IMG/VR virus record: IMGVR_UViG_3300012936_000110 | Location: 1 to 29,303 of that record | Reading direction: 5' to 3' (one strand) | DNA from: a virus | Length of the DNA stretch: 29,303 nt | Shown: piece by piece, positions 1 through 19,082 of the stretch | Layout of the letters: each line of letters starts with the position of its first letter | Position numbering within the stretch: position 1 is the first letter of the stretch | Position numbers and translations under genes: made by a program | The notes under the pieces: generated by a model | Databases searched by the model: none | Told to the model about the DNA's origin: nothing | Seen by the model: only the letters and a program-made list of their open reading frames with translations

Positions 1-336
1 ATCTGTTCTTAATATATCAACAATCTTATTTGCTAATACAGTAGGAGTTTCTTGCCCCATTAAGTGTTTGTACTTCTTTGCCCAAGTATAAGAAGAGTCA
101 CAACCTTTTTCCCAAACAGGAAGATCTTCAACTCTCTTTACCTGACTTACATCATAATCTAAAAATGGCAAATCATATGTTTCTGGATTAGTTGGATCTA
201 TTTGCCCAAACCCACTACATTGTAAGTTACAAAGAAAAAATCTTATCCAAGCAGTCGGAACACCTGTATAGTGTCCTTCTCCTTGAATACTGTGAAAGAT
301 TTCACTGTAATAATATTTCTTCTCTGCTTTGTCCAT
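1..336 (-). CDS. queE: 7-carboxy-7-deazaguanine synthase QueE (3' end beyond window)
   Basis: Radical SAM enzyme that converts 6-carboxy-tetrahydropterin to 7-carboxy-7-deazaguanine, the committed step towards preQ0. I read 112 residues from ATG 336. The N-terminus has the QueE signature SIQGEGHYTGVP (16-27) followed by RFFLCNLQC, with cluster cysteines C36 and C40; a third lies in KGCDSSYTW (C79), matching the CDTKHTW element of bacterial QueE. The spacing is CX3C-X38-C, so about 36 extra residues sit between the second and third cysteines compared with the usual CX3CX2C. The start is supported by AGGA eight bases upstream and a one-base gap after the preceding stop. The C-terminal part lies past base 1. 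FolE is four genes upstream in the same direction, consistent with one pathway. Confidence 0.88.
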   Translation of the reverse strand, partial: MDKAEKKYYYSEIFHSIQGEGHYTGVPTAWIRFFLCNLQCSGFGQIDPTNPETYDLPFLDYDVSQVKRVEDLPVWEKGCDSSYTWAKKYKHLMGQETPTVLANKIVDILRTD

Positions 337-337
337 T

Positions 338-526
338 TTAGTCCTGCAAACTTGCAAGAGGTTCATTTACATAACTATCGTTGTAATCACCATTACTATG
401 AAAGTTACGAGTGCTAGTATCCTTAACAAGTACACCGTCTTTGATTCTATATGTAGTGTATTCTGCTTTGATTACACCTTCAGTACTTCTTTCAATATGT
501 TCTTTCATAGGTCCTTCCCCAATCAT
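338..526 (-). CDS. Conserved-looking small phage protein, 62 aa
   Basis: I do not recognise a domain. The protein is short and hydrophilic, with a middle of alternating polar and hydrophobic residues (VIKAEYTTYRIKDGVLVKDT) that suggests a small beta-rich fold. A longer reading frame extends to 586, but ATG 526 is preferred: it has GAGGAG nine bases upstream and overlaps the previous stop as TAATG. It lies between a small membrane protein and queE in the run beginning at folE, so it is probably co-transcribed with the deazaguanine genes. No role can be inferred beyond that. Confidence 0.7.
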   Translation of the reverse strand: MIGEGPMKEHIERSTEGVIKAEYTTYRIKDGVLVKDTSTRNFHSNGDYNDSYVNEPLASLQD

Positions 527-760: not shown

Positions 761-1447
761 TTAATCCTTTGAGAACTCTTGTTGTAATTTAACATTATCA
801 ATAAACTCTTTTTTAGTTGCTGGATCATTTTTAAATGCTCCACGTAAAACAGTAGTCTGTGTTAAAGAACTATGTGCTTTAATACCTCTGTTTTCACAAC
901 AACCATGAGTTGCCTGTACATAAACACCTACGTGTTCACTACCTGTCTCTCTTTGTATTGCATCTGCAATCATAACATTAAGTTCTTCTTGTAGTGTTCC
1001 TCGCATAGCACACCATTGTGCAATACGAGTATATTTGCTAAGACCTAATAATTTAGGACCAGCAATAATACCAATATATGCCACACCTTTTACAGTCTGG
1101 TGATGATGTGAACACAAACTTGTAAGTTCGCTTCTCACAACAAGCATACCTTCATAACCACCTTCTATGTAGTTAGGAAAGGCACTAGGGTTAGGCATCT
1201 TGTCATATCTACCAGACATAATCTCGTTGATATACATCTTTGCCATACGCCTAGCAGTATCCATACTGTTAGGATCTGTTTCTGTGTCGATTAATAATTT
1301 TTGTAAGACATTTTCAAATGCAGGAATGGCTTCTTCAATGATTGCTTGTTTGTCGCCTTCTTCAAGCACTTCACTGATATTGTCATTTGCCCAATACCTT
1401 ATGTTTTTGTCTTTAAGCCTTTGTATAATTTCTTTTGTTTTGCTCAA
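761..1447 (-). CDS. folE: GTP cyclohydrolase I (FolE)
   Basis: Converts GTP to 7,8-dihydroneopterin triphosphate, the entry point both for folate and for 7-deazaguanine (preQ0) synthesis. In the 228-residue form the zinc ligands are visible as LCSHHHQTVKG (C112 and H115) and THGCCENRG (C183 or C184), matching bacterial C110/H113/C181. The substrate-binding region around GLSKYTRIAQW is intact and length is normal. The frame is open to a TTG at 1489, but that lies about four bases past the expected transcription start; TTG 1447 has GGAGAA six bases upstream and is preferred. A consensus sigma70 promoter (1501-1529) reads into it. With QueE downstream and the DpdA-like gene at 9573-11120, DNA modification is a likelier purpose than folate. 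Confidence 0.95.
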   Translation of the reverse strand: MSKTKEIIQRLKDKNIRYWANDNISEVLEEGDKQAIIEEAIPAFENVLQKLLIDTETDPNSMDTARRMAKMYINEIMSGRYDKMPNPSAFPNYIEGGYEGMLVVRSELTSLCSHHHQTVKGVAYIGIIAGPKLLGLSKYTRIAQWCAMRGTLQEELNVMIADAIQRETGSEHVGVYVQATHGCCENRGIKAHSSLTQTTVLRGAFKNDPATKKEFIDNVKLQQEFSKD

Positions 1448-1500
1448 TTTACTTCTCCGAGTTATAGACGTGGATGTCTCCGCGTTCAAATATACTTTAC

Positions 1501-3254: not shown

Positions 3255-3948
3255 CAGGTATCTCCTTAATCAAACGTTTGGGTCGTAATTTTAATGCTCT
3301 GTTCATTAAATTAATTATACCACCTTTTTTGAATTGTGTCAAGTGATCTTTTCTTTCCAATTCGCGTATGATTTCTGGAGTAAACTCTGTTTCAACAAGT
3401 TTGATGGGTTCTGTCAATTTTGGTGTTGTAAACTTAACATAACACAAAGGATCGCCTCTTTTGATGTTTATGCTATCACCAATTTTATCAAACACAAATC
3501 CCCAACTTATACTTCTTATCCATTTCTGTATATCGAAACTTCCTCCTATAACATTGTTCTTCCATTTTGCATTGTGCATAAAGGGTGGTGTAATTTCCAT
3601 TAAACATGGAGAGTCTGCAACAAACAAATATTTTAAACTAAATTGAAACATTTGTTTATTAGTATCATAACAGTCTTCTTCTGGGTGTACTGTTATTAAA
3701 TTTTGTAATTGATGTGTATCTACTTCATCACTTGTTATTTCTATGCCTTTGTCTGTGCTAGATGCTTTAAAGTTAATTGGACTTTTAAGTACATAATAAG
3801 AATTAAACCAAGATGTAAAAGACGGACAATCTATTACACCTCTGTTACTATAATTCTTATTTGTAACTTTTATTTTGTTTAGTTTTTCAGGCTCCATTAC
3901 AAGTAATTCTGGAATAGCACCTGTCCAACACCAACCAACTTTAATCAT
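3238..3948 (-). CDS. Uncharacterised phage protein, 236 aa
   Basis: I do not recognise a named family. The sequence looks beta-rich with many aromatics; notable elements are DCPSFTSWFNSYYVLKSP (about 40-57) and an RGDPLCYVKF segment near residue 164. The C-terminal tail is strongly basic (LMNRALKLRPKRLIKEI), a possible nucleic-acid or membrane contact. The start ATG 3948 has AGGA upstream and lies inside the end of the phosphoribosyltransferase gene. Codons of its tail contain a perfect sigma70 promoter. Confidence 0.65.
   Translation of the reverse strand: MIKVGWCWTGAIPELLVMEPEKLNKIKVTNKNYSNRGVIDCPSFTSWFNSYYVLKSPINFKASSTDKGIEITSDEVDTHQLQNLITVHPEEDCYDTNKQMFQFSLKYLFVADSPCLMEITPPFMHNAKWKNNVIGGSFDIQKWIRSISWGFVFDKIGDSINIKRGDPLCYVKFTTPKLTEPIKLVETEFTPEIIRELERKDHLTQFKKGGIINLMNRALKLRPKRLIKEIPDVKRD
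3314..3342 (-). promoter_or_regulatory. Consensus sigma70 promoter inside a coding region
   Basis: TTGACA (3337-3342), 17 bases, TATAAT (3314-3319), a complete consensus on the minus strand. It lies in the last 100 bases of the 236-aa gene and would transcribe the 75-aa gene, HIT and SGNH-like genes. Confidence 0.7.
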
Positions 3949-4501
3949 AACTTCCTACGTTTTCCCAAGGATAAACTAACCATACATCTTCTTCTGCTTT
4001 ATTTACTTCATGACAATGATAGTTAGTGTCAGCAAAATTGCTTGATAAATTTTCTGTTAATACTGCAAATCTAACATTTTTACCCCAAACAGTTTCCCAT
4101 GACGGCTCATCAGGTAAACAAGTAGATTGCCAATCTTTTTTAATCCAATTAAATGTTGCTCCTGTATCATTGATGTCATCTACAATTAATATATTTTTAC
4201 GTAGACTAGGATCCCATCTTGAACCTTGTATTTTTGTTACTTCTGGATTACCATTGTAACCAAATGCATCTTCGCTCATCCAGGCATTAGATTCGCTATC
4301 TCTATTATCGTCACGTAAACTTACTTTCAATGCTTCACAACGTATGCCAGTCATGTTACTAATAATAGTTGCTGGCACATTACCACCACGTGTAATACCT
4401 ACTATGTAGTCAGGTGTCCAGTTGTCTGCATACATATTTTTTACAATCTGTACACACATATTTTCTACATCATTCCAAGTGTAGTAGTGTTTTTTAATCA
4501 T
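3941..4501 (-). CDS. Phosphoribosyltransferase
   Basis: The protein has 186 residues. The PRPP-binding loop is plain: NILIVDDINDTGATF, the 13-residue PRTase motif with DD in place of ED. An upstream DYIVGITRGGNVPA provides the PPi loop and second strand, and EALKVSLRDDNR the flexible-loop region. These features put it with xanthine/hypoxanthine-type purine salvage enzymes or with PRTase domains of nucleotide recycling. A reading frame extends to 4537, but ATG 4501 has a strong AAGGAG upstream and avoids running into the oxygenase gene. It could recycle purines from degraded host DNA; the exact base is not determinable. Confidence 0.85.
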   Translation of the reverse strand: MIKKHYYTWNDVENMCVQIVKNMYADNWTPDYIVGITRGGNVPATIISNMTGIRCEALKVSLRDDNRDSESNAWMSEDAFGYNGNPEVTKIQGSRWDPSLRKNILIVDDINDTGATFNWIKKDWQSTCLPDEPSWETVWGKNVRFAVLTENLSSNFADTNYHCHEVNKAEEDVWLVYPWENVGSYD

Positions 4502-4529
4502 ATTTGCTCCTTGTGGAAATTGCCAAGCA

Positions 4530-5705
4530 TTAAACACTTTCCTTCCTTTTGAAGTTTCCGCTTATGCAATATCTATTTTTTCCGCTTACGTTTTTACCTG
4601 TGTAATGTGGAATACTGCTTTTAAAAATTAGTAACATACCTGTTGTAGGTACAATTTGCTTTTCGTATGTGTCTGTGTTTGCAAATACTTTAAAATGTAA
4701 ATTACCTTGTTTAGGCTCAATATTAGGATAGTACACAAAAGATAAATCACTGCCATGATGATTATGAAATGTTGTACTACCATTAGTTTCAGTAAGATGA
4801 GTCCATACCCCTGTTAGTTCGTGTTCGCCATACTTGTCTGTAACTATTCTTTCTATTTCATCAGTAAGTAATTTACAAGCAGGACCGTCTGGGTATATTA
4901 AATCTTCATAGTGTGTATCTTCTGGATTGTTGTCTATTCTATTATCTAATGTATTGTTTATTTCTTCTAATACTTTTGTATTATCTACATTAGTAATATT
5001 AGTTTCAAATACACTTATATTAGCAACACTATGATCTATTTCCTTAATAGGCAAAGGCGGAATATATGCATCTTCATTCCAAGGATATGTTTCTGGATAT
5101 CCCATTCTAATTGCACCTTGTAGTTTACCATGCACATCTTCGTCATATGCAACAAACTTAAACGTAGGAGTAAACCTATGTGCATCTCTTAAAGGTGTAG
5201 CAGTATGTAAGATATTGCTTTTCCACATAAGCATTCTACCTGGAATAGGTGGTATAGCATAAATTAATGGATAATCTTTATCGCCTTCTAACTTACCTTC
5301 TTCTTTTAAATTTGTAATAAACTTTGTTTCGCCGCCATCATTTATGTCCCAAGTTTCATTTGCATAAAACATAAAGGTATATGCATCTTCTCTTTCATCA
5401 TCAACGTGATAAAAAGCAGGTTCTCTTGGAGCAAAAATATTTGCGTGTGATCTCTTTAAAATATATCCATGCACTTCTGGACAATGCTTTTCTACAAATT
5501 CCCAAAGAGTATGAAATATTTTTGTACCTAAATAATCACCTGTACTCATTCCTGTTGGAGGCAAATCAACATTATCAACTTCACCAAATAAGTATGGTAA
5601 GTTTTTTACATCCATAACTAGTTCATGTAGTTCAGGCGGAATAAACACATCATCATATATGATCATTTTTCCATTAAGAAGTTTTGATATTACTGGATCA
5701 TTCAT
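4530..5705 (-). CDS. Tandem double-domain 2OG-Fe(II) oxygenase-like protein
   Basis: The protein has 391 residues with two oxygenase-like halves. Domain 1 (about 10-190) has H100-x-D102 in FYHVDDERED, the distal H167 in SNILHTATPL and R177, the full 2-His-1-carboxylate set plus 2OG-binding Arg, with GGETKF between. Domain 2 (about 225-390) has HNHHGSDLSFVYYP (H314/H316), PTTGMLLIFKSSIPH (H367) and a downstream Arg in KNRYCISGNF. Prolyl-hydroxylase-like domains of this sort hydroxylate proteins or nucleic acids. The two halves differ in type, so this looks like a fusion rather than a simple duplication. The start overlaps the cupin gene as ATGA. The substrate is unknown. Confidence 0.8.
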   Translation of the reverse strand: MNDPVISKLLNGKMIIYDDVFIPPELHELVMDVKNLPYLFGEVDNVDLPPTGMSTGDYLGTKIFHTLWEFVEKHCPEVHGYILKRSHANIFAPREPAFYHVDDEREDAYTFMFYANETWDINDGGETKFITNLKEEGKLEGDKDYPLIYAIPPIPGRMLMWKSNILHTATPLRDAHRFTPTFKFVAYDEDVHGKLQGAIRMGYPETYPWNEDAYIPPLPIKEIDHSVANISVFETNITNVDNTKVLEEINNTLDNRIDNNPEDTHYEDLIYPDGPACKLLTDEIERIVTDKYGEHELTGVWTHLTETNGSTTFHNHHGSDLSFVYYPNIEPKQGNLHFKVFANTDTYEKQIVPTTGMLLIFKSSIPHYTGKNVSGKNRYCISGNFKRKESV

Positions 5706-6151: not shown

Positions 6152-6530
6152 CTTTATCTTCTTTCTGCGACTTATAGTCGTCTACACATAGTCTATATAC
6201 TTCTACAAATCTATCATATTGTAGTTTCAAAGCAGGATATAAATCAATCATATCCTCAATTCTATACTTACTTGGCCAAGTATCATCACCTGTATCTAAG
6301 TTACCAAATGATGGTGCAAAGTCTGTGCTTGTATCAAATGTAAGTGTTGTTCCACTGTTAAGTGCATCTTCATCTAGAGTGTAGTCTGATGGTGCAGTAT
6401 ATGTAATGTTGTAGTCGTTATTTGTTGAAACAATACCACCGACAGTTGTACAGGCAGTTGTACAGGCACTTGTATAAGTCTCATCGCCTATACTGATAGT
6501 AAATTTTTCGTTAAGTTCTTTCTTGGTCAT
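6135..6530 (-). CDS. Uncharacterised phage protein, 131 aa
   Basis: The first two thirds are rich in Thr, Ser, Asp and Tyr (for example TYTSACTTACTTVGG, about 18-32, a short internal near-repeat ACTTACTT), as in small virion decoration or fibre-like proteins. The C-terminal third changes character to a helical KYRIEDMIDLYPALKLQYDR element and an acidic tail (SQKEDKDEAPF). No named family is recognised. It overlaps the glycosyltransferase upstream by 20 bases and the cupin gene downstream by 17. Confidence 0.6.
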   Translation of the reverse strand: MTKKELNEKFTISIGDETYTSACTTACTTVGGIVSTNNDYNITYTAPSDYTLDEDALNSGTTLTFDTSTDFAPSFGNLDTGDDTWPSKYRIEDMIDLYPALKLQYDRFVEVYRLCVDDYKSQKEDKDEAPF

Positions 6531-7593
6531 TTATTGCCCCATATAATGCTTTACCACTGAAAAACTTATCTTGTAATACTTTTGTTTGTTTAGAAAGTGC
6601 AGGCAAGTATTTTTCATAGTTTTCCATATAGTCTTTAATTTTACTTATTACTGCTTCTCTGTGTTTTTCATAAGACTGAAAACTTTCAGTCCATTCACTT
6701 GGATATTTAAATTCATCAAGTGCCATTTCACTGTAACTTAATCTATCAGGAACCATTGGAATAGTATTAACTAATGCACCTTCATACCAACTAATACCAA
6801 GTGTTTCTTGCAAATTAGCACTAAACACCAACTTTGCTTCACCTAGTAAATTATGATATTCGTTCTTTGTAAGTGTTCTTTCTTGACAAATAACTAATTC
6901 ATAATCATATAAGTGTTCTTTTAAATCTCTAAATATTTCTGGTTGTTTTTCTGGAGCAACTCTATGTGGGAATAAAATAATATCTTTTTTAGGCATACCT
7001 TTGTAACTATCTAAACTATTCTTTAGATATTCCATAGGCCAGCCAACACGTTGTATTTTGCTTTTATCTGTGCTTAATCCTACATAGTTGCCAACTTCTT
7101 TAAATGCATCTACAAAAATGTTTATGTGGAAATCACTAGCATAAAAGTTATTATCATAACATTCAAACATAGAACGTTCTGCATTTCTAACCCAAGGCTT
7201 ATCACCAATAAGTCTTCCTAAAAAGTCCGCAGGATCGTAACTGCCGGCGTGCCACAAGCCACCCACTTTAATTTTAACTCCGAGCAGTTCAGCCATATAT
7301 TTAAGTTGGATAACAGTAGGATTCCAAGCATCAGTATAAAGAAAGTAATCGCCATCTTTAATTTCGCCATTACAAAACTTCTCCCCAATGATTTCTAGTT
7401 GTTTACTTTTGTAAACATTTGTCCCACCAAAGTTAAGAAATGCCCCAGGCGTAGTAGCCTGAGGCGTCTCTCCTCCACTTATAACTTCGACATTAGAGTT
7501 AGTTGCACGTTTTAATTGCTTTGGAAGATAATCTTTCCATTGCTTTGTGTAACGTGTATCTACTGCTTCAATGTCAACGATATAAATGGTCAA
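6511..7593 (-). CDS. GT-B fold glycosyltransferase
   Basis: The protein has 360 residues. The second half shows the GT4-like layout: DIILFPHRVAPEKQPEIF (about 204-221), then YELVICQERTL, LLGEAKLVFSANLQETLGIS and the donor-site region WYEGALVNTIPMVPDRLSYSE. The N-terminal half has the acceptor domain with LYTDAWNPTVIQLKYMAELL. The start is TTG 7593: it has AAGGAG six bases upstream and overlaps the previous stop as TTGA. Such enzymes in phages glycosylate DNA bases, host surface sugars or virion proteins; nothing here decides which. Because this phage may carry a modified base, DNA cannot be excluded as acceptor. Confidence 0.8.
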   Translation of the reverse strand: MTIYIVDIEAVDTRYTKQWKDYLPKQLKRATNSNVEVISGGETPQATTPGAFLNFGGTNVYKSKQLEIIGEKFCNGEIKDGDYFLYTDAWNPTVIQLKYMAELLGVKIKVGGLWHAGSYDPADFLGRLIGDKPWVRNAERSMFECYDNNFYASDFHINIFVDAFKEVGNYVGLSTDKSKIQRVGWPMEYLKNSLDSYKGMPKKDIILFPHRVAPEKQPEIFRDLKEHLYDYELVICQERTLTKNEYHNLLGEAKLVFSANLQETLGISWYEGALVNTIPMVPDRLSYSEMALDEFKYPSEWTESFQSYEKHREAVISKIKDYMENYEKYLPALSKQTKVLQDKFFSGKALYGAINDQERT

Positions 7594-7806: not shown

Positions 7807-8247
7807 CTATTTGTAGTATTCAATATGTGCACCGTTCTCTCCGTCTTCGGACACATCTATATGAACTTCTCTTCCAGGATATTTTGTGTTGATTTGATTG
7901 TACAAATCATCACTCATCATTTCACAACTTTTATAATCTAATTCAAGTGTCTTCTCCTCATAAAGTTTTTCTAACCATCTCTTGAATTGTATAAACTCGA
8001 TATCTCTGTCATTGTGTGTTACAGAAATAGCGACTTTAAAGTGAAAGATGTGTCTGTGTGGATAACCTAAAAACGACACATCATACTCATCACCAGTTGC
8101 TAGATTAGGATCATCTAATGCCGCCGGATATTTATGGATACCTTCTTTTCTAAAAGTAACCCAAATCATTCTTTTTGCTGTATTCATAGTTTTATCTTTT
8201 CTGTCTTTTTCAAACTGTTCTTGTATTAATCTATCAGTTATACTCAT
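7807..8247 (-). CDS. QueD/PTPS-like T-fold protein lacking the usual catalytic Cys
   Basis: Its 146 residues align in order with 6-carboxytetrahydropterin synthase landmarks. H38 in GIHKYPAAL could be the first zinc His, and H64-R-H66 in YPHRHIFHF replaces HGH with both metal His kept. NDRDIEFIQFKRW resembles the MVMDFGDLK strand-helix, and VSEDGENGAHIEY resembles the VSETPTSGAEY end with E134. The nucleophile Cys expected four residues before the HxH is Leu60, and the catalytic His of LDH is Tyr105. I infer a T-fold protein of the pterin/deazaguanine group with altered chemistry or a binding role. A promoter (8248-8276) abuts it. ATG 8247 or an internal ATG 8187 could be the start. Confidence 0.55.
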   Translation of the reverse strand: MSITDRLIQEQFEKDRKDKTMNTAKRMIWVTFRKEGIHKYPAALDDPNLATGDEYDVSFLGYPHRHIFHFKVAISVTHNDRDIEFIQFKRWLEKLYEEKTLELDYKSCEMMSDDLYNQINTKYPGREVHIDVSEDGENGAHIEYYK

Positions 8248-8276
8248 AATATACTACCTTTTGCCTCCGTTGTCAA
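8248..8276 (-). promoter_or_regulatory. Sigma70-type promoter for the QueD-like gene
   Basis: TTGACA (8271-8276), 17 bases, TATATT (8248-8253) on the minus strand. The -10 touches ATG 8247, so transcripts starting here would be nearly leaderless for that ATG; the internal ATG 8187 may then be used. Confidence 0.7.
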
Positions 8277-8772
8277 CCGGATTATCTTCCTCATATTCAC
8301 TCCAACTTGTGAATTTCTTACGTTCCAATAAGTCGTGTATTTGATGTACCCATACACCTGGATTGGAAAATTTAAAGTCTGTATCATCAATTTTGATACA
8401 AGCATTATAGTTTAATTGATTTATATAAGGCAACTTAATGCTTATTTGACTTATAAAGTTCTGTCTTTCATTGAATCCATTTTCTAGCACCCAATCATGA
8501 TATTTTACATCATAATCTAAAGTAACCATATACTTCTTATCCAATAAACCATAAACTAGTTCTTCCCAATCTTCTTTAGGAACAAAACTTTGGTTAGCAC
8601 CTAGATAGATATGATCTACGTGTGTTTCTTCTGCTTTGGCAATAACTTCTTCTAAAGGTCTACAACCTACAACAAACAATGTGTCCATGTCATATGCAGG
8701 AGTTCTTTCTACTTCAAACCCTGTGAAATAAACTACATTTTCGTCTACACCTGATGCATAATCTCTTTTCAT
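8254..8772 (-). CDS. Uncharacterised protein, 172 aa, upstream of the QueD-like gene
   Basis: Elements include TLFVVGCRPLEEVIAKAEE, HIYLGANQSFVP, KYMVTLDYDVKYHDWVLENGF and FISQISIKLPYI, a repeated strand-then-helix pattern that could be part of an alpha/beta barrel. No radical SAM cysteines or other catalytic motif is visible. I recall this type of protein as conserved in marine T4-like phages but without a known role. It has its own upstream promoter-like site and is followed after six bases by the QueD-like gene, so a link with deazaguanine synthesis is possible but unproven. Confidence 0.65.
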   Translation of the reverse strand: MKRDYASGVDENVVYFTGFEVERTPAYDMDTLFVVGCRPLEEVIAKAEETHVDHIYLGANQSFVPKEDWEELVYGLLDKKYMVTLDYDVKYHDWVLENGFNERQNFISQISIKLPYINQLNYNACIKIDDTDFKFSNPGVWVHQIHDLLERKKFTSWSEYEEDNPVDNGGKR

Positions 8773-8778
8773 ATTATT

Positions 8779-8807
8779 ATATTAACCTCATAGTGTTGGA
8801 TTGTCAA
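8779..8807 (-). promoter_or_regulatory. Probable sigma70 promoter for the 172-aa gene
   Basis: TTGACA (8802-8807), 17 bases, TAATAT (8779-8784, 4 of 6 to consensus); a TATAAT overlaps but at 20 bases. Weaker than the other promoters of this window. Confidence 0.5.
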
Positions 8808-9375
8808 GAGCAGATCCTGACAAATCGCAATTAAAAGCAATACTAATTCTATCATTATTGCTAAAGTTATCTTTTACTTGATGATTTATCCACCCAGGAA
8901 AACTAATAAGCATTCCTTCTTTTGGTGTCACAGTATATCTTGTACCATTAAATTCATTACCCATACCAACTAGTTTTGGCGGTAAAGCATATTCAGTAGT
9001 CTGTGCTGGTGGAAATAAAACCAAATCGCCACAGTTTTGATCTGCTTTAATATAATATACACAGGCTGTAAAGTGTCTTGGGTGCATATGAGTTTCATTA
9101 ATGTTCTGTGGATGTTCTAAAGGTCGTGTTACATTTAACCATGCTTGATTAACTTTTATTTCACAATCTTCTACTAAACCCCAAAGCATTGTTAACTTCT
9201 TACAATGTAAGTTTACTGCTTCAAGTAAATCCGAAAGTTCTTTGTCATGTAAATTTAAGTGACTGCTTTGATTGTTTGGACCTGCTTTTTTGTAGGCATA
9301 CTTCATCAAACTATTATTGTTAATAGTTAGATTCTCCCGCGAAAACGGAGTAGTAAATAATGGAGTAGTCTCCAT
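8788..9375 (-). CDS. 2OG-Fe(II) oxygenase superfamily protein (family 5 type)
   Basis: The protein has 195 residues and starts METTPLFTTPF, the usual beginning of this family. The iron site is H96-M-H98 in NETHMHPRHF and H155 in FPGWINHQV, with R166 in NDRISIAFNCDL as the 2OG-binding Arg. VYYIKADQNCGDLVLFPP fills the middle. These proteins hydroxylate unknown targets in marine phages. ATG 9375 is preferred to the frame start at 9432 because it clears the upstream small gene and matches the family N-terminus. It is the last gene of the clamp/transglycosylase run, so a role in tailoring modified DNA is conceivable but only by position. Confidence 0.85.
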   Translation of the reverse strand: METTPLFTTPFSRENLTINNNSLMKYAYKKAGPNNQSSHLNLHDKELSDLLEAVNLHCKKLTMLWGLVEDCEIKVNQAWLNVTRPLEHPQNINETHMHPRHFTACVYYIKADQNCGDLVLFPPAQTTEYALPPKLVGMGNEFNGTRYTVTPKEGMLISFPGWINHQVKDNFSNNDRISIAFNCDLSGSALDNPTL

Positions 9376-9385
9376 TCCTACTTCG

Positions 9386-9589
9386 TTAGGATCTATTGAG
9401 TCCCAAGGTTTTTTTAACATCTTCGATTGCATCTTTTATCGCTAGTTTAATTTTCTTATGCCTTTGTAATATTTCTTTGCCTGTCCATGATCTATCTTGC
9501 CTACGTTCTTTTTCCATTTGTTCAACTTTTTTATGATAGTAAGTGAACTCTTTTTCCAATGTGCCTAACTTTTTAGATTTGTGGGCCAT
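9386..9589 (-). CDS. Small basic coiled-coil-like protein, 67 aa
   Basis: Highly charged and helical throughout (KLGTLEKEFTYYHKKVEQM, then KERRQDRSWTGKEILQRHKK), with heptad-like spacing suggesting a short coiled coil. Start ATG 9589 has GGAACT upstream and overlaps the transglycosylase gene by 17 bases. No family recognised. Tight linkage between the DpdA-like gene and an oxygenase makes it a candidate accessory subunit. Confidence 0.65.
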   Translation of the reverse strand: MAHKSKKLGTLEKEFTYYHKKVEQMEKERRQDRSWTGKEILQRHKKIKLAIKDAIEDVKKTLGLNRS

Positions 9590-11120
9590 TTTCTAGTTCC
9601 TCCAGTTTATTGTTTTCTTCTTCAGTAAACTCCTCTGCAGGTTCTGTTTTTGTAGCAGAGTCTGAAGTTTCCTCGAATAGGTTTGCGAACTGCGTACTTG
9701 CATTAATAGTTCGTTTACCTGTTGCTCCTCTAGTGCCAATAATTGACATCCAGAATCTTGAAAATTCTTCTATTACTGCATTCGCTTCGTCTCTGTTGTC
9801 AGTTGCGAATATTGCCTCCACAACATCACGGAAAAATAACCTGTCAAACCGCTCTTCCACAAGCATTGACGGAATGATTCCATTGTCGTATTGTCTATTT
9901 GCTTCTTGGACGGCGTTGATGTGCATCCAAACATTGTGTCCCATTTGTATTGCATAACTAAAACTATCCCAACTTGTTTTACCTTCTTTACCTATTTTAT
10001 TTAGGTCACCTGGTGCATATATACAAACATCTTTAGCATTAAGTCCTTTAGTAATAGGACTATCTAAGAAACTTGAATGTTTGCCTTCTCTAACAAAAGC
10101 ATCAGCAAAAGGTGTTGTATCAGTTGCAAGTGCCTTGTCATCAATACTAGGCACCATTCTGTAAACCCATTTGGTTCTGTCTTTTGTTTCTAGTTCACAA
10201 TATACTTGACCATTTGCAGTTGCCAAGAAAGGACTTGCACAATCAAATGTAATTGTAAAGTTTTCATTGTGATATTTTCTTACTGCTCTTTGTACATCTG
10301 TAAGAAGTGTTGCCCACTCTAGTTTACTTGTACCTAAGAAGTGCATAAAGTCATGTTTACCTTTTTCAAGTAATCCATCAAAACGTAATGCAACAAGACG
10401 TTTAAGAGCAAGATGAATATCACACATATTCTGTCCACCCATACTCCAACCATTAAAGTGATCTGTATATTTTTTAGGATCACAGTAGTCTTTCATTTGC
10501 TGATACCAATCTTCTGCGTCAGCATGATTTTCACCTTGTAATACATTTAAGAACTTACAATTACCATTACGATTTTTCATAAAGTAATCATTGTTTATTC
10601 TAGTGGCCGCTACTGCTTCTTGATATGTACTAATACCTGTTGCTTTTACACCCGCAGGAGAACGAGATACCCAAGCCGGAATATCAAGTATCATACCATA
10701 ATCCATGTATGCGTCCATCCAAGTTAAAACTTGTTCACGTTTCTTTTTTGCTTTAGGGCAATTAGGATCTTTCCAGTCACCTTCCCATACACCCTTACCT
10801 ATTTGGAAACCACCTGAATCACCTAACAACCAAGAGTTTTGTCTATCACGATCACGTACCATTAGTTCTTTAGAAACATCTTTATTAACATCTAAGTCGG
10901 CGTGTCCTGCCGAATACAAACTCCATTTGTATTCAAACATACTCTTGCTAGGATTTAGCCAGTTCATGCTTTCTACTTCATTTGGAAAGTTAGATGGTAT
11001 TCGTGACTTTTCTACATATTCTTCTCTACGTTGCTTACCAATGAAGGTTGCAAAGAATCCGCTAATCGCTGGAAGAAAAATTGCGTAGTCTTTTTGTTCT
11101 TGTGTTAGGTTAGTATTCAA
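9573..11120 (-). CDS. dpdA: DpdA-like guanine transglycosylase (TGT superfamily)
   Basis: DpdA enzymes exchange guanine in DNA for a 7-deazaguanine base such as preQ0. The 515 residues contain TGT landmarks in order: LLGDSGGFQIG (D101-S-G-G-F-Q106), LDIPAW (145-150), NVLQGE (192-197), GWSMGG (224-229), HFLGTS (260-265) and ITFDCASPF with D283 in the place of the TGT nucleophile. The CxCxxC...H zinc site of tRNA TGT is not visible after it, arguing for the phage DNA branch over a tRNA enzyme. The C-terminal 45 residues are acidic and probably disordered, with QFANLFEE (477-484) resembling a clamp-binding motif. The gene overlaps its upstream neighbour as ATGA and is in the gp45 operon. FolE, QueE and a QueD-like protein elsewhere in the window support the function. 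Confidence 0.8.
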   Translation of the reverse strand: MNTNLTQEQKDYAIFLPAISGFFATFIGKQRREEYVEKSRIPSNFPNEVESMNWLNPSKSMFEYKWSLYSAGHADLDVNKDVSKELMVRDRDRQNSWLLGDSGGFQIGKGVWEGDWKDPNCPKAKKKREQVLTWMDAYMDYGMILDIPAWVSRSPAGVKATGISTYQEAVAATRINNDYFMKNRNGNCKFLNVLQGENHADAEDWYQQMKDYCDPKKYTDHFNGWSMGGQNMCDIHLALKRLVALRFDGLLEKGKHDFMHFLGTSKLEWATLLTDVQRAVRKYHNENFTITFDCASPFLATANGQVYCELETKDRTKWVYRMVPSIDDKALATDTTPFADAFVREGKHSSFLDSPITKGLNAKDVCIYAPGDLNKIGKEGKTSWDSFSYAIQMGHNVWMHINAVQEANRQYDNGIIPSMLVEERFDRLFFRDVVEAIFATDNRDEANAVIEEFSRFWMSIIGTRGATGKRTINASTQFANLFEETSDSATKTEPAEEFTEEENNKLEELENGPQI

Positions 11121-12070: not shown

Positions 12071-12829
12071 TTAATTGTTTATTATATTTAGGTTTTGTGG
12101 AAAAGTCAAGTCTCTTTTTTGTTTAAGGTATTCAAAAAGTTTTACTTTTGGTTCCCAACCTAAATCTCGTAATTTCGAAATGTCAGCAATATTATCTAAC
12201 CTTTCGTGTTCATCACCAATTCGTTCTTCAACCTTTATGTTGAAAAAGTCGGTAATCTCTTTTAAAGGTGTACTGATACCTGTTCCAATATCAAATACTC
12301 CTGAAACTTGTTGTGTTAATAAAAATTTAATTGCTTCACAAACATCACTTATATGGATAAAGTCTCTTTTATGGTTTGTGTTAATAAATGAAATGTCTTT
12401 TCTAAATAAACGAGGTATAAACATATTGGGCCTTTGCTGACTGTCATTGTATATAGTGCAAAAACGCAATCCTATGCTACCTTCTGGCGCCATGCGTTCA
12501 ACTGTATATTTTGAAAGTGCATAAGGATTTCTATCAGGTTCTTTTGCAGTACTCGAACTAGCATATAATATTTTTGTATTTTTAAAATGCTCAAATAATC
12601 TTTTGGTTGCTAATACATTGTTTCGCCAATAAGCATCTGGATCAACTAGACTTGGTCTAATTCCACTACTTGCCGCTAAATGAATTACTGCATCAACTTC
12701 ATAGTTTAAATCACAAGTAAGTAAATCTTGTCCGGCACTTTTATCAATAGTATAAATTTGATGCCCTAGTAAATGTTTTACTAGTTCACTGCCTACAAAT
12801 CCTTTACTACCTGTAACTAATATTTTCAT
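12071..12829 (-). CDS. NAD-dependent epimerase/dehydratase (extended SDR)
   Basis: The protein has 252 residues. The Rossmann motif is GSKGFVG (7-13, GxxGxxG), followed by AVIHLAASSG and catalytic SSST with Y103-x3-K107 in NPYALSKYTVE. The later FDIGTGISTPLKEI is the usual substrate-domain element of nucleotide-sugar epimerases. The product sugar is unknown. The start overlaps the glycosylase-like gene stop by four bases. Its last 35 bases contain the promoter of the clamp gene. It may work with the glycosyltransferase at 6511-7593, but they are in different operons. Confidence 0.88.
   Translation of the reverse strand: MKILVTGSKGFVGSELVKHLLGHQIYTIDKSAGQDLLTCDLNYEVDAVIHLAASSGIRPSLVDPDAYWRNNVLATKRLFEHFKNTKILYASSSTAKEPDRNPYALSKYTVERMAPEGSIGLRFCTIYNDSQQRPNMFIPRLFRKDISFINTNHKRDFIHISDVCEAIKFLLTQQVSGVFDIGTGISTPLKEITDFFNIKVEERIGDEHERLDNIADISKLRDLGWEPKVKLFEYLKQKRDLTFPQNLNIINN
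12081..12109 (-). promoter_or_regulatory. Sigma70-type promoter for the gp45-dpdA operon
   Basis: TTGACT (12104-12109), 17 bases, TATAAT (12081-12086) on the minus strand, within the end of the epimerase gene and 25 bases upstream of the clamp ATG, with AGGAGA in between. Confidence 0.82.
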
Positions 12830-13215
12830 GCAAATTCTTCTCTAATGTATCTTTGTAATTCGTGATCACCTACATTGTTAGGAATACGTTTTTTGTAAAA
12901 TAACTCGTAACTGTCGGAACCATACTTGCCTATGCCATATAGTTCTGTAGCATCTTCTCCATCCCAATCACCAAACTGTTCACTCATTCGATACAATCTT
13001 TCTGCTCTTACTTTACGCATACCTAATGGAGCAATTACTTCTTCTATTTGATTCTTAGTTGCATGAAGTAAGGCATTGTGTGTAGGCCATTTAGCAAAGA
13101 ACTTAGGCAGTACTGCTTTAACTTGTTTACGATTAGTTAAGTTAAGGCAAATAACACCAACCATATGTTGCCATACATTATCTACTTGTTGTTGTACCAT
13201 TAGATGATCTTTCAT
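12826..13215 (-). CDS. MBD4-like HhH-GPD DNA glycosylase
   Basis: The protein has 129 residues. VICLNLTNRKQVKAVLPKFF, then PLGMRKVRAERL, the helix-hairpin-helix ELYGIGKYGSDSYELF (91-106), and the catalytic Asp D117 in VGDHELQRYI match, in order and spacing, the glycosylase domain of MBD4 (ELHGIGKYGNDSYRIF...DHKLNKY). MBD4 removes T or U from G mismatches. There is no iron-sulphur cluster and the length equals a bare catalytic domain. It is in the replication region, overlapping genes on both sides by four bases. The substrate in this phage could be a deaminated or foreign base. Confidence 0.8.
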   Translation of the reverse strand: MKDHLMVQQQVDNVWQHMVGVICLNLTNRKQVKAVLPKFFAKWPTHNALLHATKNQIEEVIAPLGMRKVRAERLYRMSEQFGDWDGEDATELYGIGKYGSDSYELFYKKRIPNNVGDHELQRYIREEFA

Positions 13216-17907: not shown

Positions 17908-17936
17908 ATTATATACTATAATTCTCTTTGTGTCAA
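17908..17936 (-). promoter_or_regulatory. Consensus sigma70 promoter for dsbA and downstream
   Basis: TTGACA (17931-17936), 17 bases, TATAAT (17908-17913), followed by AGGAGA and the dsbA-like ATG at 17883. The stop codon of the preceding oxygenase gene lies inside the -35. Confidence 0.88.
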
Positions 17937-18469
17937 GTTGCTTGTGGTCTTTTAATTGCAATATTTCCACTTACAATAATTCTTTCTTTATCAATTTCTT
18001 GTTTTGGCACACTATGACTTACCCAACCTGGAAAAATAATAATTAAACCTGTTTCTGGTTTAATTGCTCTTTCGGCAGTAGGAAATACCAAAGGTGCACA
18101 AAATGGACTAGCATCTACATAATAAACAAAACTCCATGTAGCAGGATGATGTGCGTGTGGTAAAGTTTCTTCACCTTGTCTATAAACTGCACCCCAACAA
18201 TCAGTTGCAAAAAATTCACCTTGCGGTAATGGATTAGATCCATTTGTAATCAACTCAATAGCAAAGTCTATAATTTTTTTGAACTCAACATCGTTTTGCA
18301 TTGTCCATTTAGTCATATCTGCTTTTACATTTGTTTTTCTATATTGCTGATCACCTTGTTCTTTTATCTTACTTGTAAGAACTGGTCTGACAACTTCTGC
18401 ATCAGGATACATTCCTGTAAACACTTCTGCTGTTTCCAAAAATTGTAAATGCTGTACGTGGGGGTCCAT
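17933..18469 (-). CDS. 2OG-Fe(II) oxygenase superfamily protein
   Basis: The protein has 178 residues. H105-A-H107 in TLPHAHHPATWSFVYYVDA and H152 in IIFPGWVSHSV supply the iron site; R163 in KERIIVSGNIAIK is the 2OG-binding Arg. The layout equals that of the oxygenase at 8788-9375, so the two are distant homologues. The frame begins at GTG 18490; ATG 18469, just after the previous stop, gives a family-like N-terminus but has no clear SD, so the start is uncertain. The substrate is unknown. Confidence 0.82.
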   Translation of the reverse strand: MDPHVQHLQFLETAEVFTGMYPDAEVVRPVLTSKIKEQGDQQYRKTNVKADMTKWTMQNDVEFKKIIDFAIELITNGSNPLPQGEFFATDCWGAVYRQGEETLPHAHHPATWSFVYYVDASPFCAPLVFPTAERAIKPETGLIIIFPGWVSHSVPKQEIDKERIIVSGNIAIKRPQAT

Positions 18470-18470
18470 G

Positions 18471-19082
18471 CTAGTATTTAATAAAAGCACCTATACGTCC
18501 ATGGACATCTGGATAATCTATGTATTGGTAACCTTTAGGAGGATTTTTATCTTGTCCTTCCCACACAGGAATAAATTCTTTTCTATTGTCCGGAAAGTCT
18601 GGATTGGATCTAAAATGTGCTTCAATTAATTTCCCACCAATAAACTCGCAGTTGATAATTGGTTTGTTCTTGAACTGTTCTAAAACTTTTGGCAAAGGTA
18701 CAACATCATCTGTCTTTACCCATTTGTCCCATTTAATTAAAGTACTTTTCTTTTTAAATCCTTCTACACACAACCACTGCTCACCATATCTATAATCTAC
18801 AGACAAGTGTCTACCCTCAAACCATTCACACCAAAAACTTCCGTGTGGTAAATGCATTGTGTATTTTTCAAGTGTAACTTTTTTAGCACCAAGTCCAAGT
18901 CCTAGTACATTGACACAAGGTTTAACAATATAAAAGTTTGGTTTAGGTACATCTATACCTGCTGGACCACAGGTATATCCTAGTTTACGTGATAAAATTA
19001 ATTTGTCGTATATCCAAAGTTCGTCAGGGTCTGCGTTCTGCCAATAAATGTCTTCTTCTGTATCGTCATATATCGTTGCCAT
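18471..19082 (-). CDS. Uncharacterised protein with possible ATP-grasp features, 203 aa
   Basis: The N-terminal part has ELWIYDKLILSRKLGYTCGP (21-40) and NFYIVKPCVNVLGLGLG, and the C-terminal part INCEFIGGKLIEAHFRSNPDF. The latter resembles the end of ATP-grasp ligases, where Glu and Arg/Asn bind ATP-Mg, and YIVKP resembles the ATP-binding Lys strand. The protein is short for a full ATP-grasp ligase and the glycine loop is not convincing. It ends immediately before an oxygenase gene. Confidence 0.55.
   Translation of the reverse strand: MATIYDDTEEDIYWQNADPDELWIYDKLILSRKLGYTCGPAGIDVPKPNFYIVKPCVNVLGLGLGAKKVTLEKYTMHLPHGSFWCEWFEGRHLSVDYRYGEQWLCVEGFKKKSTLIKWDKWVKTDDVVPLPKVLEQFKNKPIINCEFIGGKLIEAHFRSNPDFPDNRKEFIPVWEGQDKNPPKGYQYIDYPDVHGRIGAFIKY

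Follow-up and report, generated by a model that had tools for sequence, protein, structure and literature searches.

The gene considered here lies on the minus strand of a 29,303-base IMG/VR virus record, a 29 kb fragment of its genome that we call the window throughout, and encodes a small T-fold protein of a marine phage, with relatives in at least 598 IMG/VR stretches, in 25-27 GenBank phage records, and in 19 bacterial or archaeal assemblies (Table 1). A PHROGs profile search matched residues 24-144 to phrog_17812 (E = 5e-35), for which PHROGs assigns no function and whose best matches were proteins of phages phi13:1 and ACP17; no Pfam or NCBIfam model matched the protein. The N-terminal extensions carried by some members (Bakedbeans and others) contain no known domain, and fusions hence provide no functional clue; in BFVD, fusions of the family appear under the names "alcohol dehydrogenase" and "AAA." The family is large, has no characterised member, and adjoins the phage enzyme that inserts modified guanine into DNA.

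Table 1. Genes of the window and selected codons of the T-fold gene. Locus counts refer to 188 T-fold family loci, including the window and a few duplicates, many of them cut short
Feature	Position	Strand	Remark
T-fold protein gene (phrog_17812)	7807..8247	minus	real ORF, 146 aa, read 8247 to 7807
His38 codon, metal ligand 1 (= QueD H16)	8134..8136	minus	invariant, 52/52
Leu60 codon, in place of nucleophile Cys27	8068..8070	minus	Leu in 52/52
His64-Arg65-His66 codons, metal ligands 2 and 3 (= QueD H31, H33)	8050..8058	minus	invariant, 52/52
His78 to Glu84 codons	7996..8016	minus	family-specific invariant H78, R81, E84 (alignment)
Tyr105 codon, in place of catalytic His71	7933..7935	minus	variable
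Ser107-Cys108-Glu109 codons	7921..7929	minus	Ser and Glu invariant; Cys in 47/52
Glu134 codon, pterin/purine anchor (= QueD E110)	7846..7848	minus	invariant, 52/52
QueE, N-terminal part	1..366	minus	runs off window end; phrog_2076, E = 2e-20
FolE, GTP cyclohydrolase I	761..1489	minus	Pfam PF01227, E = 2e-37
Phosphoribosyltransferase	3941..4537	minus	Pfam PF00156, E = 7e-9
GT-B glycosyltransferase-like protein	6511..7593	minus	homologue in 159/188 loci, within 500 bp in 116
Conserved neighbour, no assigned function	8254..8772	minus	121/188 loci, mostly directly upstream
DpdA-type transglycosylase	9573..11120	minus	GDSGGFQ with D100, D292 in TFDCASPF; homologue in 154/188 loci

Genes surrounding the T-fold gene

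Within the loci counted in Table 1, a DpdA-like gene lies no more than 3 kb from the T-fold gene in 145. The DpdA assignment draws on the ACP17 copy, which matches TGT (TIGR00449, E = 5e-7), and on the two Asp motifs. The DpdA of X1 matches a KVP40 protein (E = 7e-38; DpdA2-like) that is taken to be DpdA2 of the nt-1 group, as described in PMC6884629. In Ahp1, D479, phi13:1, and MA9V-3, the neighbour is a homologue of the DpdA annotated in Flavobacterium phage immuto (E = 2e-10 from Ahp1, which links to D479 and phi13:1), and in Roos it weakly resembles the transglycosylase of phi47:1, with ParB present in both clusters. The occurrence of one small family beside three DpdA types that are dissimilar in sequence is strong evidence for its membership in the DpdA pathway. 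No DpdA was identified adjoining the T-fold gene of RHph_I1_18 or Bakedbeans.

Several other genes recur around the T-fold gene or lie close to it in the window. The conserved neighbour at 8254-8772 belongs to a family of about 170 residues that is within 500 bp of the T-fold gene in 94 loci, occurs also in ACP17, and had zero database matches; its AlphaFold2 model (pLDDT 88.9) bears a weak likeness to TIM-barrel proteins, including Escherichia coli QueE (E = 0.36). Three 2OG-Fe(II) oxygenase-like proteins (4530-5705, 8788-9432, and 17933-18490, minus strand; PF13640, PF13759) are encoded in the window, two of which border the T-fold cluster, as is an HhH-GPD DNA glycosylase (12826-13215, minus strand; PF00730, E = 5e-7). 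The T-fold gene of phage Phosso is immediately preceded by one annotated "glycosylase" (locus L081, 19379-19912). Bacterial clusters that combine the glycosyltransferase, T-fold, and DpdA genes were found in Magnetospirillum (L174, L175, L176, L178, L185), Aurantimonas (L179), and Methylobacterium (L182). Those of Magnetospirillum also encode a small protein as well as a second QueD, and in M. aberrantis another QueE-like gene lies at a distance of about 16 kb; an integrase-like gene lies near one cluster (L176), and the bacterial clusters may be either prophages or DNA-modification islands.

Predicted fold and active site

An AlphaFold2 model built from 52 diverse family members reached a mean pLDDT of 93.7 and has the strand-strand-helix-helix-strand-strand (bbaabb) order of a T-fold. 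The first 27 Foldseek matches in the PDB were PTPS, QueD, or an uncharacterised protein, led by PTPS/QueD (E = 4e-5, probability 1.00), and weaker matches included GTP cyclohydrolase IB, dihydroneopterin aldolase, and QueF-like. Profile-profile comparison with QueDs (P = 8e-4) paired H38, E109, and E134 with QueD H16, E86, and E110; this alignment slips by two columns at HRH/HGH, where direct matching of the HxH motifs pairs L60 with Cys27. Single-sequence Pfam scans missed the PF01242 cut-off (best E = 0.015, no family member passing), and a PDB sequence search with the family profile returned bacterioferritin matches only, which we judged to be chance. The likeness to QueD exceeds chance, though the sequence similarity is weak. 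A preliminary description of this DNA had proposed a QueD-like T-fold protein at this position, with structure prediction as a check, and the open reading frame, the predicted T-fold, and the QueD and PTPS structures that are its nearest solved relatives confirm that proposal.

Conservation was assessed over 52 diverse family rows with identity down to about 35%. Fifteen residues are invariant in all 52: H38, L60, H64, R65, H66, F68, H78, R81, E84, F85, S107, E109, E134, D135, and E137. With QueD and PTPS (PF01242) the protein has in common, besides the fold, the three metal-binding His residues, the anchoring Glu, and a Ser-x-Glu motif at helix 2. It differs from them in the Leu that stands for the nucleophilic Cys, in a catalytic His that is not conserved, in an inter-helix loop about 8 residues shorter, in the extra invariant H78, R81, and E84, and in falling short of the Pfam cut-off while coexisting with QueD.

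The earlier claims about these residues were thus largely borne out, with two corrections. Leu60 does occupy the nucleophile position, and the metal site is intact, although all three of its His ligands are retained and not just two. The catalytic His is indeed not kept, but its reported replacement by Tyr105 is better worded as a lack of conservation, as the position holds His in 20 rows, Tyr in 17, Phe in six, and other residues in nine. At position 104, Asp occurs in 33 rows and Asn in 15, and the catalytic Asp-His pair was not found as a feature of the family. Tyr105 itself is ruled out as a catalytic residue by its variability, and so is Cys108 as a substitute nucleophile, given that this position, the sole Cys of the protein, is Val in five of the 52 rows. 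The same two observations, Leu60 and a dispensable Cys108, separate the family from QueF and QueF-like (archaeosine synthase), which share the T-fold and work on a deazaguanine at its 7-substituent, as free base or in RNA; the QueF motif and a preQ0 pathway are also missing here. H78, R81, E84, S107, and E109 are invariant together with the metal triad, which speaks for an active site, and the aligned sequences appear to reflect a change in its chemistry and not decay.

Pathway context and coexistence with QueD

FolE and QueE were present in all 10 isolate phage genomes first examined and also in MA9V-3, which bears out the suggested link to the pathway these enzymes belong to. FolE, QueD, and QueE together produce 7-carboxy-7-deazaguanine (CDG). 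The enzyme used next by other phages, QueC (PF06508), was not found in 10 of 12 isolate lineages with the T-fold gene (Phosso, PA5oct, RHph_I1_18, Ahp1, phi13:1, Bakedbeans, BUCT-ZZ01, ACP17, MA9V-3, and Roos), and the match in X1 was below threshold; the QueC of phage Ps15, serving as a control, was recovered (E = 1.5e-8). A phmmer search with Ps15 QueC found zero relatives in the 188 T-fold family loci, and some metagenomic contigs gave weak, distant PF06508 matches. Vibrio phage D479 carries the T-fold gene and encodes a QueC-like PP-loop protein with a CGKCAKC motif (L224, 511-1344, minus strand), and QueD was not detected in it.

Ps15, from the genus closest to ACP17 (PMC9025141), has the gene order FolE..phosphoribosyltransferase-QueC-DpdA-QueE between DNA polymerase/RecA and helicase, and no member of the T-fold family was found in it. 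At the matching place, X1 has FolE..glycosyltransferase-DpdA-T-fold-QueE and ACP17 has QueD-FolE..DpdA-glycosyltransferase-T-fold-QueE; in these syntenic phages, the T-fold gene and the glycosyltransferase gene occupy the place of QueC. Faecalibacterium phage Roos (L218) unites the T-fold gene, a DpdA-like protein, ParB, and a queuosine-precursor transporter (TIGR00697, E = 2e-34) in one cluster, and FolE, QueD, and QueE were not found in this phage. In Roos, the T-fold protein may therefore receive a base taken up from outside in place of CDG, which would broaden or alter the proposed substrate, and the Roos cluster is possibly a salvage version of the pathway.

The preliminary description had also raised the idea that the protein fills a missing QueD step, and had advised a search for a true queD elsewhere. 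The window itself carries little weight in this matter, being a 29 kb fragment. When whole isolate records were searched with PF01242, QueD was found in Phosso, PA5oct, RHph_I1_18, phi13:1, Bakedbeans, BUCT-ZZ01, ACP17, X1, and MA9V-3, and weakly in Ahp1; none was found in D479 or Roos. The coexisting QueDs examined keep Cys27, Asp70, His71, and Glu110 (in Ahp1 the Asp-His stretch alone aligned), and a QueD with its Cys, Asp, and His accompanies the T-fold family in nine of the 12 isolate lineages. Among 17 contigs of the clade to which the window belongs, five reach at least 56 kb upstream and three of these encode QueD, 53, 45, and 55 kb upstream of the T-fold gene (G005, G006, and G016, respectively); on the other two, with 60-68 kb of upstream sequence, QueD was not detected. 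In Magnetospirillum, the second QueD lies inside the T-fold cluster itself.

These canonical QueDs speak against the substitute reading. A QueD/CPH4 synthase working without Cys and His would account for the QueD fold and metal site and for the genomes and contigs in which QueD went undetected, but the frequency of an intact QueD in isolates and close relatives, and the fact that CPH4 can also come from the host, make it very unlikely in our judgement. PTPS-III enzymes of Plasmodium and bacteria carry Glu in place of the catalytic Cys, and the idea of a PTPS-III-type variant likewise found no support: the PTPS fold without the catalytic Cys is common to both, but the T-fold protein has an invariant Leu there and lacks a folate context. 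That it supplies folate synthesis with 6-hydroxymethyl-dihydropterin as a PTPS-III or DHNA-like enzyme, a reading compatible with the T-fold and the nearby FolE, is exceedingly improbable given its linkage to QueE and DpdA and not to folate genes. A finishing step of the phage DNA disguise, as yet uncharacterised, is more likely than a stand-in for QueD.

The QueDs of these phages have a peculiarity of their own. A widespread phage type keeps Cys27, His31, Asp70, His71, and Glu110 and has Phe or Tyr at metal-binding position 16 and Tyr at position 33 (motif xHCxxxHGY; loci L193, L191, L190, L188, L189, L214, L231, L240, L241, L242, L243, and L244), which leaves its metal binding unexplained. 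This mirror image of the T-fold protein prompted the idea of a composite active site formed by the two proteins. We rejected it: QueC phages that lack the T-fold gene (Iggy, Ps15, RHEph04, Motura, and phi47:1) have the same HGY-type QueD, as does immuto, and the complementarity is a coincidence.

Proposed reaction and competing explanations

The T-fold protein probably acts on a 7-deazaguanine after QueE. The fuller proposal is that, in the pathway by which phages modify DNA with 7-deazaguanine, it is a catalytically active enzyme at the fork that QueC serves in other phages; in our view this has about an even chance of being correct. Its status as an enzyme, its substrate (CDG, free or already in DNA), and decarboxylation are what we infer from the T-fold, the conserved metal triad and Glu, the lost QueD catalytic residues, the genomic linkage, the coexistence with QueD, and the usual absence of QueC. 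Where QueC is missing, the enzyme that follows QueE has to take CDG, or dCDG in DNA, as its substrate. Glu134 would hold the base, as QueD holds pterin, and the 7-substituent would be placed at the metal bound by H38, H64, and H66, close to R81 and H78, new invariants where helix 1 starts and candidate holders of the carboxylate. In the simplest outcome, the carboxyl group would be removed from CDG to give 7-deazaguanine, which the neighbouring DpdA would exchange into DNA.

Decarboxylation specifically is a tentative choice, to which we give somewhat less than an even chance. We know of no metal-dependent T-fold decarboxylase. Work by Cui et al. from 2023 reportedly described dDG and dCDG in phages and named a predicted CDG decarboxylase DpdL, with the same predicted position in a pathway of FolE, QueD, QueE, and DpdA that omits QueC and yields 7-deazaguanine; the 10 isolate lineages without QueC fit this context. 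The T-fold protein may perform the DpdL step, which we offer as a lead from pathway position and not as a result. A natural precedent for the chemistry, in a different fold, is proposed to lie in the tubercidin pathway, in which a UbiD-type enzyme with the nucleotide as its substrate is assigned the matching step (PMC6112128). Counting against our main reading are D479, with its QueC-like PP-loop protein and undetected QueD, and Roos, which lacks FolE, QueD, and QueE.

The glycosyltransferase neighbour lacks an explanation if the product is plain 7-deazaguanine, which counts against decarboxylation; it occurs in roughly half of the isolate lineages and points there to an additional step or to another one. 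The T-fold protein could instead make an acceptor for sugar or phosphate, converting the 7-substituent (reducing it to hydroxymethyl, for instance, much as QueF reduces a nitrile) so that the adjacent glycosyltransferase could decorate it and glycosylated 7-deazaguanine would result in DNA. The frequency and closeness of the glycosyltransferase gene (Table 1), its 36-48% identity from marine phages to Magnetospirillum, and a small P-loop kinase in the adjacent place in Cellulophaga and Chryseobacterium phages (two Bacteroidota phages) favour such a role. However, RHph_I1_18, Ahp1, Bakedbeans, D479, phi13:1, and Roos, all with identical active-site residues, showed no glycosyltransferase homologue inside or close to the cluster, no nucleotide-cofactor motif was recognised in the T-fold protein, and another base could be the glycosyltransferase's target. 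We regard this acceptor-making role as unlikely, and less likely than the main reading. Distinctly improbable is the more specific version in which the T-fold protein and the glycosyltransferase jointly turn CDG into a glycosylated 7-deazaguanine that DpdA puts into DNA, a modification undescribed in the literature searched, in marine phages and in the chromosomal clusters of Magnetospirillum, Aurantimonas, and Methylobacterium. Equally doubtful is a non-catalytic role, as a subunit or carrier from which bound CDG or pterin would pass to DpdA or the glycosyltransferase; the lost Cys/His pair, the constantly small size, and the association with DpdAs of several sequence types would suit a carrier, but a full metal triad and at least five more polar or charged residues, invariant down to about 35% identity, exceed what a carrier needs.

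If the proposed post-QueE role is correct, an unnamed and large phage family with hundreds of IMG/VR copies would gain a function, and a QueC-skipping branch of the 7-deazaguanine pathway would be defined. The proposal also makes a testable prediction for the cultured phages phiST, ACP17, and PA5oct/Paride. A natural comparison pair is phiST, with the T-fold gene, versus Flavobacterium phage immuto, which has FolE, QueD, QueE, and a DpdA of the phiST type and in which the T-fold gene was not found.

Phosphoribosyltransferases are a further recurrent component, annotated within the deazaguanine clusters of BUCT-ZZ01, Ps15, and immuto and seen, besides the window copy, at L087 (5468-5929), L226 (4818-5189), and L244 (5921-6316). 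In tubercidin synthesis, TubE couples CDG with PRPP (PMC6112128); by analogy with this precedent, and given the recurrent phosphoribosyltransferases, it is conceivable that DNA modification proceeds through a nucleotide.
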